A DNA stretch of 64,000 nucleotides, from NCBI GenBank assembly GCA_026003195.1, contig BPGU01000002.1, positions 620,001 to 684,000 on the forward strand, given 5' to 3'. Positions within the stretch are counted from its first letter, which is position 1. Every line of letters starts with the position of its first letter. Made by a program: the position numbers and the translations under genes. This stretch comes from Armatimonadota bacterium (GTDB lineage Bacteria > Armatimonadota > HRBIN16). The notes beneath the pieces are model-generated. The model had not been told where the DNA came from. It did not search any database and was given only the letters and a program-made list of their open reading frames with translations. Shown here one piece after another: positions 1-20,713 of the stretch.

Positions 1-1382
1 AAGCCGCTATGGGGGCGAGGGCGGCTCAGATAGCCGGGGTTCAGGTAGCCTGCGCCCGTGTCGCCGGCGATGAAATAGTCCAGAGATGAGGCGTTGCGCC
101 TCACGAAATGCATTCCCACCGGAAACCGATGCGCCAGATTGGGATTAAACGCCCAAGCCAGAGGCACCTTGCCTCGCGCCGGGTCATTCCACAGGCGCGG
201 AATCATGCGATAAAACCAGGCACTGGAGTCGTAGTCGCCCACATAAAACGCGACGAAGCTGTAAGGAGCCACCATGCCGTTGAAGAGCACGTAGCCATCG
301 CGCTGCAGGTCTTCCAGAGTAGGATGCCGCTGAGCATAGCGCTTTTCCAGCGGATAGTGCATGAAAAAGGAGGCGTTCGCCATCGCACCGATGGCGGGAG
401 CATCAGCATCCAGATAGGCGTTGAAGCACGAAGCAATCTCCACGAACCGCCATTCCGACTCTACCGCCCCGTGGGGCTCACCCACTGCGTCGGTATACTT
501 GAAATCCCACGGCACGAATCCGCCGATATGGGTCATGCCACCACCGGTGAGCTCGTAAGACGCCATGAGTATCGCCTTCAGCGTGCGGTTATCCGCGCCC
601 AGCGGCTGATCTGGGTCATCCACCGGCTTCACGTCCTCCCAGGGCGACAGGTCAAAGAAAAAGCCTTTGCGAGCGATAAAATAGTCGTGGTTGCACAGCA
701 TAGTGCGCTCCAGAGGCAGTCGCACTCTGCCCGTGAGCCAGTAAGCGTCGCTGTAATAGCCGAGCACCCCCGGCGAGCACTTGCCCCTGCGCAGATAGGC
801 GCCCACCGCCCACATCAAAGCATCACACTTGGCACTGCCGGTGCTGGGCAACGCCAGAGGTCCCAAACTGCCTTTACCGGTGAACAGCGGACTGCCATCT
901 GTCTTTAGCAGCGCAAGACGCACAGGTAACGCGCCCCTGCCCTGCGTCAGGCGAGTGTAGAGGGAATCGGCATCGGGATCATAGCGTACCGGCAACAGGT
1001 TATCCACTCCGGCGGCGGTTGAGGCGACCAGCGCGGTAGCAGGTACGCGCTCATCCCAGACAACCACTCCGTTGAACGATCGGCGGAACCGCTGCACCAG
1101 CTCCAGCACGTTGGCGACCTTTTCTACCTTCGCATGTTCCAGCCATTCGCCCGCCTGGCGCAGGTGTTCCAGCCAGTAGAGGTCGGTTGCACCTCGCCCA
1201 TCGTCTCCCACAAAAAGCACATAGAGCCGCGGTTGACGGCGATTGACGATGCCCTGCAGAGCGGTCACCAGATACAGTTCATCCCAAGCTTGCCGCCGCC
1301 GGCGTGCATCGGAGAGGTCTATGCGATGCAGGTGAGTCAGGTCGTACAGGACAATGTCTCCTGCAAACCCTGCGCGGGTCAT
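1..1382 (-). CDS. GxGYxYP domain-containing protein, C-terminus off the window
   Basis: Partial gene: 460 codons are visible from the ATG at 1380-1382 and the frame is still open at base 1. The N-terminus has the family's pattern of a strand-helix unit with LQGIVNR and RLYVLFV, and near the left edge is FIAGDTGAGYLNPGYL, a match to the GxGYxYP signature (G-A-G-Y-L-N-P). The family is a putative carbohydrate-active enzyme of bacteria with rich polysaccharide metabolism; no substrate can be given from sequence. The ATG overlaps the rpoN stop (ATGA), so the two genes are translationally coupled. No signal peptide is evident at this start, which is odd for the family. Confidence 0.75.
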   Translation of the reverse strand, partial: MTRAGFAGDIVLYDLTHLHRIDLSDARRRRQAWDELYLVTALQGIVNRRQPRLYVLFVGDDGRGATDLYWLEHLRQAGEWLEHAKVEKVANVLELVQRFRRSFNGVVVWDERVPATALVASTAAGVDNLLPVRYDPDADSLYTRLTQGRGALPVRLALLKTDGSPLFTGKGSLGPLALPSTGSAKCDALMWAVGAYLRRGKCSPGVLGYYSDAYWLTGRVRLPLERTMLCNHDYFIARKGFFFDLSPWEDVKPVDDPDQPLGADNRTLKAILMASYELTGGGMTHIGGFVPWDFKYTDAVGEPHGAVESEWRFVEIASCFNAYLDADAPAIGAMANASFFMHYPLEKRYAQRHPTLEDLQRDGYVLFNGMVAPYSFVAFYVGDYDSSAWFYRMIPRLWNDPARGKVPLAWAFNPNLAHRFPVGMHFVRRNASSLDYFIAGDTGAGYLNPGYLSRPRPHSG

Positions 1383-2746
1383 TGCAGTTTTTTTCTCCTC
1401 TTGGAGGACGGAATATGCAGCCGGATACGGTGCTTGGCGACGGTTCTGCGGGATGTCTTGATCCCCCAGCGCTGGTACAGGATATCGGCAACCTGCTCGT
1501 CGCTATAAGGGTTTTCAGGGTCTTCAGAGTGTATCACTTCCTGGATGGCTTGCTGGAGGCTCAGGGCAGGCGTGAAAAAGTCGGAGAAGGGTATCAAATC
1601 GCCATTTGGAAGCTGTACCCATTTGTTAGATATCGCCCGGCTGACGGTGGACTCGTGCACTCCCAGCTGATCAGCTATCTCTGTGCGCGTCAGCGGTTTC
1701 AGGAAGGTATACGAGCCGGTTTCGAGAAAACCCATCTGCCGCTGGATGATGGCTCGCGTGACACGCGTAAGGGTGCGATAACGTATCTCCAGCATATGAA
1801 GAAACCTCTCGGCACGCTCGACGCAATCTCGTATCTGCCTGATATTTTCCTCTGAGAATTCGGCAGGGTTCTTCTTCATTTTCTCATATTGTTCGCGCCA
1901 TCGCGGACTCACAATCAAAATGCCCGAGGGACGGACGATCTCCACTTCAAAGCCCTCCGGACTGCGTCGAATAATCACATCGGGCTGGATAGTATCCTGG
2001 TAAGAAGAAGACATTTCCCACGGCGTGCGGAATTGATAAGCCGGATAAGGATGCAGCGCTCCCTTGATATACTGGACTGCCTCTTCCACCTCTTCGATGC
2101 GAGCCTTCAGTTCGCGGGCGATTCGGCGGATGGGAGGCTTGAGCAGCCGATGGAAGTAATTCTCCACAATCTTCTCTGCCAGTGGGTTTCCCTGTCCCTG
2201 CTCGCGCAGATAGCGCAGTTGCAGAAGCATACACTCCTGCATAGACCGCGCCCCAATGCCCGGCGGGTCCAGAGACTGTACCACGCGCAGGACCTCTTCG
2301 ATCTCCTGCGCAGAAGCCCCCGTCTCCAGCGATGCACGGTCTATGCTGAAGCCAAGAAGCAATCCGTGTTCGTCGAGGTTATCCACAATGTATTCAGCGA
2401 TGGCATACTGGTGCTCGGGCAGCTGAGCATGCAGTTCGCGGCTGAGGTACTCGCGCAAGGTCATGCCCCCATCAGGAGTGTTGCTGAGGGGGTCCGTATC
2501 GAGGTCGAGCGCATCGTCGTCGATGTCGTAAACGCGCTCGAAATGCTTCCCCCTCAGAGGCTGGCGATAATCCGATTCCTCCGAGACGGTCTCTATCCGC
2601 TCGAGCGCGGGATTCTCTTCCAGCTCTTCCTCGATAGCGCTTTCCAGCTCCAGAGTATTGCACTGCAATAGATGGGCTGCCTGAATAACCCGCTGGTCGA
2701 CTCTGAGTTCGATAGACTGCTCTAACCTTGGTGCTAACACAACCAT
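1379..2746 (-). CDS. rpoN: RNA polymerase sigma-54 factor RpoN
   Basis: Sigma-54 subunit that directs RNA polymerase to -24/-12 promoters and needs an enhancer-binding ATPase for open-complex formation. The 455-residue product is of usual length. It shows the Gln/Leu-rich region I (about residues 1-50), an acidic linker, the core-binding domain (about 95-290), a helix-turn-helix (LTRTEIADQLGVHESTVSRA, about 350-370) and the RpoN box near the C-terminus as RRTVAKHR (consensus RRTVAKYR). It is the first gene of a two-gene unit with the downstream GxGYxYP gene. No sigma-54 activator gene is in the window, but a consensus target promoter is (18910-18925). Confidence 0.97.
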   Translation of the reverse strand: MVVLAPRLEQSIELRVDQRVIQAAHLLQCNTLELESAIEEELEENPALERIETVSEESDYRQPLRGKHFERVYDIDDDALDLDTDPLSNTPDGGMTLREYLSRELHAQLPEHQYAIAEYIVDNLDEHGLLLGFSIDRASLETGASAQEIEEVLRVVQSLDPPGIGARSMQECMLLQLRYLREQGQGNPLAEKIVENYFHRLLKPPIRRIARELKARIEEVEEAVQYIKGALHPYPAYQFRTPWEMSSSYQDTIQPDVIIRRSPEGFEVEIVRPSGILIVSPRWREQYEKMKKNPAEFSEENIRQIRDCVERAERFLHMLEIRYRTLTRVTRAIIQRQMGFLETGSYTFLKPLTRTEIADQLGVHESTVSRAISNKWVQLPNGDLIPFSDFFTPALSLQQAIQEVIHSEDPENPYSDEQVADILYQRWGIKTSRRTVAKHRIRLHIPSSKRRKKLQ

Positions 2747-17676: not shown

Positions 17677-17917
17677 TCTCAACCACCTCCCGGTGCATCC
17701 ATGAAAAACACCCGAAAAGCCGATGGGGAAATGCCTGCTGCAGGATGTGCTTCTGGTACCAGGGAGCCAGTGACGCGGAACCTTCTCTGTTTGCTCTTCC
17801 CTCTCGCGGGCTTTCCACTTCTATATAACGCAAGATTCGTGCCATACAGAGGCTAAGGGAGCAAAATGTAAGAAAAGTAATAAAAATTGTATTTAGTCTC
17901 TCAAAATATACCAGAGA

Positions 17918-17944
17918 CAAAAACGCCCGCTTTTGGGGCGGGCG
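17918..17944 (-). terminator. Rho-independent terminator of the PEP-CTERM gene at 17968
   Basis: On the minus strand CGCCCGC (complement of 17938-17944), a 7-nt loop, GCGGGCG, then a T run (complement of 17919-17923), beginning 24 nt after the stop codon. The rest of the 17683-17967 gap holds no recognised gene. Confidence 0.8.
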
Positions 17945-17967
17945 CGCGAAACAGGGAACGAGTGCTT

Positions 17968-18786
17968 TTACATCCGCCTCCGCAGGCGAATGCCCAGCGG
18001 TATCAGACCGGTTGCGAAGAGTAGCAGTGAGGCTGGTTCGGGGATCGTACCATGCTGGTGCTCGTAGATGAAGTCTCCATAGTAGTTACCATCGTCATCG
18101 TAGACCTGTCCCTGAAACAGCAGGAACTCGTCTGGCTTTACCTCCAGCTCGGTAAAAACGTCGAAGAAGCTCTGGGCACCCAGGTTAAAGTCACCGACGC
18201 TATTGCCTAACCCCCCCGACTGGAAGCGCAAATCTGGAAGTGCGGTCTCTGTAGTCATCAACGACCAGGAGAAGTTCTTGATAACCATCGGATCTTCCAT
18301 GTCGTTGAGCATACGCAGTGTAGCGCGTGAGCTACCACCTGGCGGTGCTCCCCAAGGGGTTACCTCGAAGCCGGGTAAGCGTACAAAGCCACCTAAAGGG
18401 GGTATTTTCTTGCCGTTTGCGTCTGTCCAAAATGCCTGCTGGATGACGATTTTGTTCTTCTCCTTCTGCCACAGCTCCAGCCCGATGTGCGTCTTGGTGC
18501 AGTGAGGCACCTCTCCATTCGACCAGTGATACTTTTTCACAAGGGGATTGAACTGACTACTGCTGTGTTCGAAGCTTCCAAAATCCCCTTTCACACTGGA
18601 AATGAAGTTCAGGTTAGAGTCAGAGTACACATCCATGTGGAAATCGTGGGCAGTCTGCCCTGTAGCATTATGGATGTCCCAGTTACCCTTTACTTTGACG
18701 CCCCCTACCTGGGCAAGCACGGTAGTGACGAAAAAGCAAAGTGCCAGCATCATAGCCAGCCGAATAACACCACATCTCGGTGTCAT
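17968..18786 (-). CDS. PEP-CTERM sorting domain protein
   Basis: Exported protein of 272 residues. It has a signal peptide at residues 1-26 (LAMMLALCFFVTTVLAQ) and the C-terminal sorting signal IPEPASLLLFATGLIPLGI followed by RLRRRM. The mature part (WDIHNATGQTAHDFHMDV...) resembles the small beta-sandwich PEP-CTERM proteins with repeated polar strands; function unknown. It has its own terminator at 17918-17944, so it is a single-gene unit upstream of the sigma-factor gene. Its start region is separated by about 125 bp from a sigma-54 promoter that fires in the opposite direction. Confidence 0.85.
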   Translation of the reverse strand: MTPRCGVIRLAMMLALCFFVTTVLAQVGGVKVKGNWDIHNATGQTAHDFHMDVYSDSNLNFISSVKGDFGSFEHSSSQFNPLVKKYHWSNGEVPHCTKTHIGLELWQKEKNKIVIQQAFWTDANGKKIPPLGGFVRLPGFEVTPWGAPPGGSSRATLRMLNDMEDPMVIKNFSWSLMTTETALPDLRFQSGGLGNSVGDFNLGAQSFFDVFTELEVKPDEFLLFQGQVYDDDGNYYGDFIYEHQHGTIPEPASLLLFATGLIPLGIRLRRRM

Positions 18787-18877
18787 CGCGATATTCTCCT
18801 TCCCCAGTAATAGCTAACACATGTATAACACTGCTGCGAGCCACCGGTTTTTCAACCCTGCAGAAACCCGGCTCTGT

Positions 18878-18893
18878 AAAAACACCTGTTTTT
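18878..18893. promoter_or_regulatory. AT-rich inverted repeat upstream of the sigma-54 promoter
   Basis: AAAAACA-CC-TGTTTTT, 7-bp arms, ending 17 bp before the -24 element. The loop is too small for an RNA hairpin, so a protein-binding DNA operator is the likelier reading. Confidence 0.4.
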
Positions 18894-18909
18894 TGCTGTA
18901 CCTCGCCAA

Positions 18910-18925
18910 TGGCACGAATCTTGCA
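18910..18925 (+). promoter_or_regulatory. sigma-54 (-24/-12) promoter, full consensus match
   Basis: TGGCACG (18910-18916), AATC, TTGCA (18921-18925). GG and GC are separated by exactly 10 nt as sigma-54 requires. The predicted transcription start is near 18936, and no ORF lies between it and the terminator at 19047. Confidence 0.7.
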
Positions 18926-18935
18926 CTATACCATA

Positions 18936-19072
18936 GTGCGCAGGAGTGCGTGACGAAACATCTGGACACTGAAAACAGGCCCCGGTTTGTCCGGTGAGGA
19001 ATAGCAGATTTCCGTTCAGACACTCACTCCTTCATTCCTGCGTTTTGCCCCGCGAAGTCGGGGCGTTTTTTT
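18936..19072 (+). ncRNA. candidate sigma-54-dependent structured small RNA
   Basis: The ~137-nt interval from the predicted sigma-54 start to a strong terminator contains no plausible ORF. The two ends pair: CGCAGGA (18939-18945) with TCCTGCG (19036-19042), or alternatively AGGAGTG (18942-18948) with CACTCCT (19025-19031). Inside, a long imperfect stem can run GAGTG/CACTC, TGA/TCA, AAA/TTT, TCTG/CAGA, capped by small hairpins such as CCGG-TTTGT-CCGG. It is not recognisably tmRNA, RNase P or SRP RNA. The rod-like form recalls 6S RNA, but it is shorter and the promoter type is unusual for that. Expression is untested. Confidence 0.5.
19047..19072 (+). terminator. Rho-independent terminator
   Basis: GCCCCG (19047-19052), 6-nt loop, CGGGGC (19059-19064), G, then seven Ts (19066-19072). 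It ends the candidate RNA driven from 18910-18925. Confidence 0.85.
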
Positions 19073-19103
19073 CGTCTGGCTGGATTTTGCCACCAAAGTG
19101 TTG

Positions 19104-19136
19104 TATAATGCAGGTGAAAAACCCGTACGTTACGGG
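19104..19136 (+). promoter_or_regulatory. -10 element and leader hairpin of the 66-residue gene
   Basis: TATAAT at 19104-19109 without a good -35. The expected transcript begins with a CCCGTA/TACGGG hairpin (19122-19136) about 90 nt ahead of the start codon. Confidence 0.45.
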
Positions 19137-19228
19137 AACGTGATCGCATTTTTCGGGAACATTGACAGCGGATGGAGCGTCTGAAAAAACGGAGGTCGGC
19201 GCAGCGACTGCGGGAAAGGAGGTGTCGC

Positions 19229-19429
19229 ATGGAAGCAGAGCGCCGTGTATCGCTGTTGTTCCCGCGAAGCTGGCAACTGGTCTCGGTGTATGTTCCGGCG
19301 AGCATGGTAGATGACGTCAAGGAACGTAACATGCAATACTGGTTATCTTTATATGAGCGCGACGCGGAACAGGCTCTCCAAATTGGAGAGCAATTGGGAC
19401 TGGTAGCTCCTCAGAAAGCAGCTTCTTGA
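19229..19429 (+). CDS. small hypothetical protein, 66 residues
   Basis: Not recognised. The ATG at 19229 has a near-perfect AAAGGAGGTG 5-6 nt upstream, chosen over a longer Arg-rich frame from 19172. The product is soluble and charged, with a hydrophobic patch (WQLVSVYVPASMV) and a helical second half (YWLSLYERDAEQALQIGEQLG) resembling a short alpha-hairpin. It has its own -10 box and ends 21 nt before a strong bidirectional terminator, so it is a monocistronic gene, transcribed in the same direction as the candidate sigma-54 RNA just upstream. Confidence 0.7.
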   Translation: MEAERRVSLLFPRSWQLVSVYVPASMVDDVKERNMQYWLSLYERDAEQALQIGEQLGLVAPQKAAS

Positions 19430-19446
19430 GAGGGGAACAACAGCAT

Positions 19447-19485
19447 GGAAAAGCCCCAAGCCAACGCTTGGGGCTTTTTTCTTTT
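19447..19485. terminator. bidirectional Rho-independent terminator
   Basis: AAGCCCCAAGC/GCTTGGGGCTT, 11 bp, CAAC loop, with a T-rich run on the right and As on the left, placed between convergent genes (end of 19229-19429 and end of the leftward operon at 19523). Confidence 0.9.
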
Positions 19486-19522
19486 TCGTCCGCTTTACCT
19501 AAGCGGAAGGACGCTTGGAACC

Positions 19523-20020
19523 TCAACCAGGGCGAAACACCGGTGCGGGGTCACTATCCTCCACTATCTTTGCCACCGGCACCCCCAGGCGTTCCGCAAT
19601 CATCTGCGAAACCCTGTTCAGCTCCTCTCGATTCCACCCTGCTGTTTGCCAGAGAATCTTATCACCCGAATCCAGCAGGTACAGGGTAGGCACCGAAAGC
19701 AGGTCGTAGGCTACCGTCGCCCGGAGCCCTTCATCCAGCACCTGCGGAAATGTGACGTTGCCGTACGTGCGCGCATAGCGGACAGTGGCTTCGGCATCGT
19801 TCTGAGACACGCCCCAAATCTGGAACCCCTTGTCCGCATACGCTTGTTGAAACTTCTCGAGGTAAGGGTGGGTAAACTGGCACACCGGGCACTCTACCTT
19901 GTAGAACACCAGCAACAACAACCCCTGATGGCGAGCCTCTGCGGTAGAGTACTGTTTGCCATCCACTCCCTGAAAAGTGAAGTCCACCAGAGCATCTCCG
20001 GCTACCCGTGTAGCCATCAC
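19523..20020 (-). CDS. TlpA/AhpC-type redoxin protein
   Basis: Thioredoxin-fold protein of 165 residues. The active site is YKVECPVCQFTHPYLEKF (CxxC at about 43-46), followed by the peroxiredoxin/TlpA features GVSQND, FPQVLDEG and the cis-Pro loop LSVPTLYLLD. There is no signal peptide, so it should act in the cytoplasm as a thiol oxidoreductase or bacterioferritin comigratory-type peroxidase. GTG (20020) and ATG (20017) starts both fit the AAGGAGG upstream. Last gene of the long leftward operon, 21 nt after the vanX-like gene, and closed by the terminator at 19447-19485. Confidence 0.85.
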   Translation of the reverse strand: MMATRVAGDALVDFTFQGVDGKQYSTAEARHQGLLLLVFYKVECPVCQFTHPYLEKFQQAYADKGFQIWGVSQNDAEATVRYARTYGNVTFPQVLDEGLRATVAYDLLSVPTLYLLDSGDKILWQTAGWNREELNRVSQMIAERLGVPVAKIVEDSDPAPVFRPG

Positions 20021-20041
20021 GCATACCTCCTTCCACGCAGA

Positions 20042-20713
20042 TTATTTCCGCAAACGCTTCTGCCACTCAAGTGGCAACTCGATAAGCCCATAGATGCAAT
20101 AGGGTGCCCCGACACGAACTGCCCAGGCTGCGTCACCATACGAGTAGTGCCAGAACTCATCGCGACAGTTGCTGAACCCCGCTCCCAGCATCGCTTCCAC
20201 CAGAATCATGCGGTTGCGATGTGCCTCGGGGGTGAGTCCCTCGATCCATGTCGGCGCCGCTTGCCACCCGGTGTAAGGCGAGGTTACGTCCAGCGGTTTG
20301 CCACTGGCAGACAGCAGTTGCACGTCCACCGCCCCACCGGTACAGTGCCCCGGCGGTGCCTTCTGGTCCACCGGCGCAAAGAAACGGTTGGTCATGCGCC
20401 GCAGGGTGGCATAGCTCCACTCCGGATGTTTCTCGCGCAGCTGATGGAAGTACCCCTCATAGTGTTCACGCTGCATCTCCAGCGTACGGTAGGCGGTCGT
20501 GACCCGCAGCTGATAACCGGCGGGCAGCAGTTCCTGAGCATGGTTCAACATCTCGGCGACCGTCGCGCGCAGGAATGGGATACACTTTCGTGCCACACGC
20601 ACCTTCGGACAGGCTTTGCGAATGTCCACCAGCGGCTCACCACATTCCCGTAGAGGCACTCTGTTCAGAGCCGCTATGGGTTCGGGACTGCCTTTCTTGC
20701 GCCAATCGCTCAT
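20042..20713 (-). CDS. D-alanyl-D-alanine dipeptidase (peptidase M15D, VanX/DdpX-like)
   Basis: Zinc dipeptidase that splits D-Ala-D-Ala. The 223-residue protein carries the M15 ligand motif GHCTGGAVD (HxxGxAxD) and the catalytic EFWHYSYGD (ExWH), plus the substrate Arg region VTTAYRTLEMQ. The ATG at 20713 overlaps the dapF stop (ATGA); the longer frame to 20971 is a shadow through dapF. No signal peptide is present. Next to dapF and in the same operon as aroKB and ribDE, a role in peptidoglycan dipeptide recycling is likelier than vancomycin resistance, since no vanHA genes are nearby. Confidence 0.88.
   Translation of the reverse strand: MSDWRKKGSPEPIAALNRVPLRECGEPLVDIRKACPKVRVARKCIPFLRATVAEMLNHAQELLPAGYQLRVTTAYRTLEMQREHYEGYFHQLREKHPEWSYATLRRMTNRFFAPVDQKAPPGHCTGGAVDVQLLSASGKPLDVTSPYTGWQAAPTWIEGLTPEAHRNRMILVEAMLGAGFSNCRDEFWHYSYGDAAWAVRVGAPYCIYGLIELPLEWQKRLRK

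Follow-up and report, generated by a model that had tools for sequence, protein, structure and literature searches.

In a genus of uncultured hot-spring Armatimonadota, the 3′ part of a conserved small RNA (sRNA) that follows a predicted sigma-54 promoter is antisense to the ribosome-binding site (RBS) of an exosortase-EpsI mRNA. We consider it likely that this RNA is a trans-acting, probably Hfq-assisted, sigma-54-dependent sRNA occluding the exosortase Shine-Dalgarno (SD) sequence within an incoherent feed-forward loop; transcription, pairing, the use of Hfq and repression are inferred. The RNA family and the circuit are new, sigma-54-driven base-pairing sRNAs being already known as a kind. 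The initial annotation of this DNA had proposed the sRNA without identifying a target, and the exosortase mRNA is the new element. The locus comprises the following features, numbered within the window, that is, the whole stretch of 64,000 nucleotides that was analysed.

18878..18895, plus strand: AT-rich inverted repeat AAAAAACA-CC-TGTTTTTT, directly upstream of the -24 element; kept in 8-9 sRNA loci
18911..18926, plus strand: predicted sigma-54 (-24/-12) promoter TGGCACGAATCTTGCA; kept in all 9 sRNA loci; 106 sites genus-wide, 0 for reversed controls
18936..19072, plus strand: small RNA, ~135-137 nt; start inferred from -12 + 12, no mapped 5′ end
18938..18948, plus strand: 5′ arm of P1 (partner 19033-19043), in the minimum free energy (MFE) fold; pairs invariant
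18938..18951, plus strand: 5′ hairpin GCGCA-GGAG-UGCGU, competitor of P1; 100% of cells paired, one compensatory pair
18961..18967, plus strand: 5′ arm of P2 (partner 19014-19020), in the MFE fold; pairs invariant
19021..19040, plus strand: conserved 3′ region CACTCACTCCTTCATTCCTG; one substitution in 9 species
19024..19037, plus strand: predicted target-pairing seed UCACUCCUUCAUUC, within the conserved 3′ region; antisense to the exosortase RBS
19033..19043, plus strand: 3′ arm of P1, in the MFE fold; pairs invariant
19046..19072, plus strand: Rho-independent terminator with 7 T; terminator-like stem 19046-19065, conserved
19172..19429, plus strand: small downstream ORF with its own conserved -10-like TGTTGTATAATG; separate unit

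The initial annotation had described a full-consensus -24/-12 promoter, an adjacent AT-rich inverted repeat and a terminator with seven Ts, and all three were found again when positions 17800-20200 were read. The box reads TGGCACG-AATC-TTGCA, with GG at 18912-13 and GC at 18924-25, that is GG-N10-GC. When up to one mismatch was allowed, the box pattern matched three times in the window as compared to 1.0 expected; two boxes are perfect (18911-18926 and 17844-17830, minus strand). Over the whole genome, TGGYACGNNNCTTGCNNTA gave 14 matches versus 0 for the reversed control pattern, so that the box pattern is far beyond chance.

Folding of 18936-19072 yielded -49.0 kcal/mol (z -2.26, better than 98% of shuffles). 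Two mutually exclusive end-to-end pairings had been proposed. Both are indeed present in the sequence, 18938-18948 with 19033-19043 (P1) and alternatively 18942-18952 with 19021-19031, the first being contained in the MFE fold. No covariation of the long stems was visible in the sRNA alignment. Because their pairs are nearly invariant, covariation neither supports nor contradicts the long pairings. Compensatory changes were found only in the 5′ hairpin and in the apical hairpin, one pair in each, and both are statistically weak. The loop CACUCACUCCUU is predicted to be largely unpaired in the free RNA, with the seed loop 57-92% unpaired. As annotated, the interval has no ORF: the only candidate frame starts with a GTG codon at 18950, but in most relatives an indel puts it out of register, and no conserved ORF was found in the RNA. 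With Rfam, the sRNA had no match over the gathering score, a relaxed search gave only subthreshold matches at other positions, and no covariance-model match linked it to known families (Qrr, GlmY/GlmZ, 6S and others).

The distribution of the sRNA was studied in ten genomes of its host genus (Armatimonadota, HRbin16). A DNA search found the region in eight further genomes, with 72-85% identity. A covariance model built from nine sequences (R1), the kind of search that had been suggested as a check, matched in 9 of the 10 genomes with E values of 1e-25 to 1e-41. Outside the genus nothing was credited, only 22-28-bit matches, not individually inspected, being obtained among 291 genomes of the phylum. 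An exact search for the seed in 85,000 species genomes returned only records consistent with these Armatimonadota HRbin16-type genomes, and no match was found in the viral contigs searched.

In the oriented alignment, variable flanks surround conserved blocks: the dyad, the box, GCGCAGGAGTGCGTG, CTGGACACCG and chiefly TTTCCGTTCAGACACTCACTCCTTCATTCCTGCG, followed by the terminator. Seed and terminator are thus conserved in nine genomes while the flanks diverge. The alignment also contains a conserved CUGGACAC element, and the internal hairpin varies among relatives and is deleted in genome G001. The upstream neighbour of the sRNA differs between genomes, indicating that the RNA is an independent unit. 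The downstream small ORF, which has no Pfam or NCBIfam family, is likewise a separate unit since in G008 the sRNA lies on a contig without it. In G009 the covariance model had no match and the ORF was absent as well; because both are missing, a deletion cannot be distinguished from an assembly gap. A DNA match in G009 was rejected as an sRNA, since it represents no more than a PEP-CTERM gene promoter. Homologous regions devoid of promoter, base pairs and terminator would have refuted the initial annotation. None was encountered: promoter, RNA ends and terminator are all retained at the homologous loci, which supports a stand-alone sigma-54-dependent sRNA in the absence of transcript data. Overall, the predicted promoter and the conserved RNA unit are established by sequence and conservation, and transcription is inferred.

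A link to PEP-CTERM proteins and PrsK/PrsR regulation had been suggested from the divergent neighbour, 18786-17968. This gene does carry a PEP-CTERM domain (TIGR02595, 19.1 bits versus a cut-off of 16). However, it is adjacent to the sRNA only in this genome, and a link through it was rejected because its position is not conserved. The link stands instead at the level of the regulon. Each of the ten genomes has 3-19 TGGYACGNNNCTTGCNNTA sites, 106 distinct sites altogether, with 0 matches of the reversed pattern. By a simple motif rule, at least 39 of the genes behind these sites are PEP-CTERM-like, TIGR02595 being over cut-off in the examples tested. Most classifiable genes behind the boxes code for PEP-CTERM proteins, which are exported surface proteins sorted by exosortase, and these are joined by one exosortase-EpsI operon, behind the box in eight loci (PF09721 with 209 bits and TIGR02602 above its cut-off; EpsI follows). 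Sigma70-region-4 proteins and, at nine sites, the sRNA are also found behind the box. A cold-shock protein gene occupies this place at nine classified sites, in most genomes of the genus (L053 in the own genome). Two further elements of this system lie in the window.

17830..17844, minus strand: second predicted regulon promoter, a perfect -24/-12 box
1379..2746, minus strand: rpoN (sigma-54), TIGR02395 307 bits, above cut-off; ~16 kb from the sRNA box

The box at 17830-17844 is followed on the minus strand by a gene for a sigma70 region-4 protein (17682-17203) and a PEP-CTERM-like gene (17145-15763). The former protein consists of sigma-70 region 4 only, and the latter matches a C13 peptidase weakly. 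In G001, G004 and G006, regulon boxes also precede similar region-4 proteins.

The genome encodes one rpoN, located where the initial annotation had placed it, and one true sigma-54 activator domain (253 bits, the other four matches reaching ~30 bits or less). This activator is PrsR-like, with 420 bits to TIGR02915, and its gene follows that of a PrsK-like GAF/PAS histidine kinase. The PrsR equivalog cut-off of 502.6 was not met in the own genome or in the genus, where the best score was 424. The protein (L187, contig C1:37950-39068, minus strand) is a REC-AAA+ protein ending soon after the AAA+ domain, and no C-terminal HTH or DNA-binding domain is evident. The regulon promoters have in common an AT-rich dyad that precedes the -24 element by ~30-48 nt. 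Most of them have a dyad similar to that of the sRNA locus, but its centre is ~12-13 nt farther from -24; because of this differing distance, equivalence of the two dyads is not shown. Overall, the locus has what is expected of a sigma-54 transcription unit, a box with fixed spacing in a genome encoding rpoN and an activator, RpoN dependence being inferred. The common box before PEP-CTERM genes likewise fits a PrsK/PrsR PEP-CTERM regulon. As judged from the genomes, the box defines a small PEP-CTERM/exosortase regulon in this genus.

The reverse complement of the 3′ block of the sRNA was found in the exosortase leader, ~100 nt after a -24/-12 box, as GAATGAAGGGGTGGAGTGTATG in the own genome and as GAATGAAGGAGTGAAGTGTATG and variants in the others. 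In the own genome the target GAAUGAAGGAGUGA (contig C2:22864-22843, minus strand) lies on the exosortase-EpsI mRNA and stretches from the SD sequence as far as the start codon. In all 8 genomes having both partners the seed is antisense to the exosortase RBS, and a contiguous helix of 13-15 bp, G-U allowed, can be drawn for all eight pairs. Pairing in the own genome needs two G-U pairs, the longest Watson-Crick run being 9. A 22-base pattern derived from the seed/leader comparison had its best match at the exosortase leader in each genome with the leader motif. In eight genomes the exact 12-mer ATGAAGGRGTGA from the seed was located at the exosortase RBS; it also matched the sRNA itself, on the antisense strand. 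Other matches are few, and those inspected are inside coding frames of unrelated genes and were rejected as sRNA targets.

Seed duplex energies were -25.9 to -34.1 kcal/mol for the exosortase leaders, as compared to -26.3 for the best of 86 other regulon leaders. Background RBS statistics, drawn from 464 kb of the own genome (1395 candidate starts, 293 genes), gave a mean of -15.4 and a minimum of -30.3 kcal/mol. By duplex energy the exosortase leaders thus stand apart from almost every other leader, the overlap being confined to the weak end. Because an anti-SD motif (CUCCUU) lies in the seed, part of any RBS match comes free. Therefore, the control kept the anti-SD core and shuffled the flanks; 0-11 of 1000 shuffles reached the real value. 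Full-length dimer folds had the same hybrid over the SD sequence in 8 of 8 cases. In most of them the 5′ end of the sRNA folded into the GGAG-loop hairpin (18938-18951), which forms in the predicted dimers once the target engages the 3′ part of the sRNA. Cofolding energies were computed for 37 °C, and the organisms come from hot springs.

Seed and target show no compensatory co-variation, since both are nearly invariant. Because the genomes are related, the agreement of eight genomes represents one conserved event and not eight independent ones. In G009 the exosortase leader is retained but no sRNA was detected; in G007 the sRNA is present and no exosortase was found, the assembly being 77% complete. 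Each genome with exosortase has two. The second (L250, contig C2:104113-104880 in the own genome) has no -24/-12 box and no complementarity to the sRNA, its likely start reaching no more than about -13 to -18 kcal/mol. It was rejected as a target and serves as an internal control. Upstream of the RBS, the exosortase 5′ leader (L087 and homologues) has a conserved hairpin, CGGGG-CGGUAGA-CCCCG or CGAGG-CGGUAGA-CCUCG, holding a nearly invariant GGUAGA element. The genome has an Hfq gene. The RNA has the attributes of a trans-encoded base-pairing sRNA: its own promoter and terminator, no ORF, and a conserved seed, accessible by prediction, for a distant mRNA. Overall, its complementarity to the exosortase RBS is, in the genomes compared, conserved and unique; pairing in cells is inferred.

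In the mechanism that we favor, sigma-54 RNA polymerase would transcribe 18936-19072 as part of the PEP-CTERM/exosortase regulon, under the single PrsR-like activator. The segment 19024-19037 would then pair with the exosortase-EpsI mRNA from the SD sequence to the start codon and block ribosome binding, probably with Hfq. As one activator would drive the exosortase together with its repressor, an incoherent feed-forward loop would result, and exosortase synthesis would be capped or delayed relative to the PEP-CTERM substrates.

Repression rather than activation is merely inferred, because predicted SD accessibility in the exosortase leaders is variable (0.06-0.64) and expression data are lacking. 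The same sRNA and the same pairing could instead activate or stabilise the exosortase mRNA, or the leader could sponge the sRNA from other targets. We regard this as unlikely. Some leaders do partly sequester the SD sequence, the leader is long and structured through the conserved hairpin and the RBS, and further targets of an anti-SD seed cannot be excluded. However, pairing from SD to start codon is the classical position for repression, no conserved inhibitory structure was found in the leader, and, among the matches inspected, the genus offers no further intergenic copy of the 12-mer core. A regulon RNA of unrelated function, for example binding a protein through GGA motifs, would make the exosortase complementarity a by-product of the anti-SD-like sequence. 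The CUCCUU within the seed, the GGAG-loop 5′ hairpin kept in 9 of 9 sequences, and the conserved CUGGACAC, which target pairing leaves unexplained, are compatible with such a role. We nevertheless find it improbable, given the flank-shuffle control, the uniqueness of the match, the ~8 matching nucleotides outside the SD conserved in both partners, and the promoter type common to sRNA and exosortase.

The two remaining possibilities dispense with a free RNA. The small ORF 19172-19429 follows the RNA in most genomes, which would be in keeping with the RNA being an attenuator or 5′ leader of this ORF. Against this, a strong terminator intervenes, the conserved -10-like TGTTGTATAATG follows it, and G008 has the RNA on a contig without the ORF, which makes this reading very improbable. 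Finally, without expression data the locus might be an untranscribed decayed promoter with chance hairpins. This is hardly credible with box, RNA and terminator intact across the genus.

RBS occlusion by the sRNA might also be part of a broader scheme, which we put forward only tentatively. The RNA would be an antisense that keeps itself inhibited, with a 5′ arm (GCGCAGGAGUGCGUG) that mimics the exosortase RBS and holds the RNA's own 3′ antisense closed; an encounter with the real RBS would then exchange the pairing partner and release the hairpin with the GGAG loop at the 5′ end. All sigma-54 control in the cell, with one sigma factor and one activator, would then be dedicated to protein sorting, as a regulon in which RNA feeds back on the sorting enzyme and to which a second, larger structured RNA gene under the same promoter belongs.

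RBS-occluding sRNAs of the RyhB, OxyS or MicA type have an accessible C/U-rich seed antisense to the SD sequence and the start region. The predicted seed resembles theirs, but here the SD-like 5′ arm of the RNA itself also pairs with it, and target and lineage are new. Among known sigma-54-driven regulatory sRNAs are Qrr of vibrios (PMC10162802) and GlmY/GlmZ (PMC7073468). The present RNA shares with these a stand-alone gene, a -24/-12 promoter and control, here predicted, by an enhancer-binding protein, as well as, with Qrr and GlmZ, action on mRNA by pairing, here inferred. In contrast, it has no sequence or Rfam relation to them, belongs to another phylum, and targets an exosortase mRNA having the same promoter type as the sRNA. 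In Proteobacteria, a -24/-12 motif precedes many PEP-CTERM genes, together with PrsK-PrsR (Haft et al. 2006, PMC1569441), and RpoN dependence of pepA was demonstrated experimentally (PMC9850573). From the sequence evidence, this PEP-CTERM/sigma-54 association extends to Armatimonadota: the -24/-12 motif before PEP-CTERM genes, an NtrC-like activator (PrsR, here PrsR-like), a PrsK or PrsK-like kinase, an exosortase (EpsH) and EpsI are common to both. The present regulon differs by its phylum, by an activator without evident C-terminal HTH, and by the exosortase gene and RNA genes inside it. In addition, motif 1 of the proteobacterial regulon lies about 63 nt upstream, whereas the AT-rich dyad is here close to -24.

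No small RNA tied to exosortase/PEP-CTERM sorting was found in the literature searched. If the proposal is true, this would be, within that literature, the first linked to the sorting system, with a concrete base-pairing target in a phylum having almost no RNA biology. The balance of exosortase to substrate is poorly understood; here one sigma-54 switch would govern both the enzyme and its substrates, with an inferred built-in brake. The predicted pairing is directly testable by reporters in a laboratory host.

Another RNA candidate was observed behind a sigma-54 box of the same pattern (L041; contig C1 of the own genome, ~49190 down to ~48980, minus strand). It is ~210 nt long, has no ORF and gave no usable Rfam match, either with gathering or with relaxed thresholds. 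Homologues are L075, L100, L117, L128, L142 and L081. They share the invariant core GCGCCTGGACGCGC-TTCGC-GTCGGGCTGCGA...TCGCCTAACGGTGCA and a GC-rich terminator-like end, and 14 of the 72 consensus pairs have compensatory changes.
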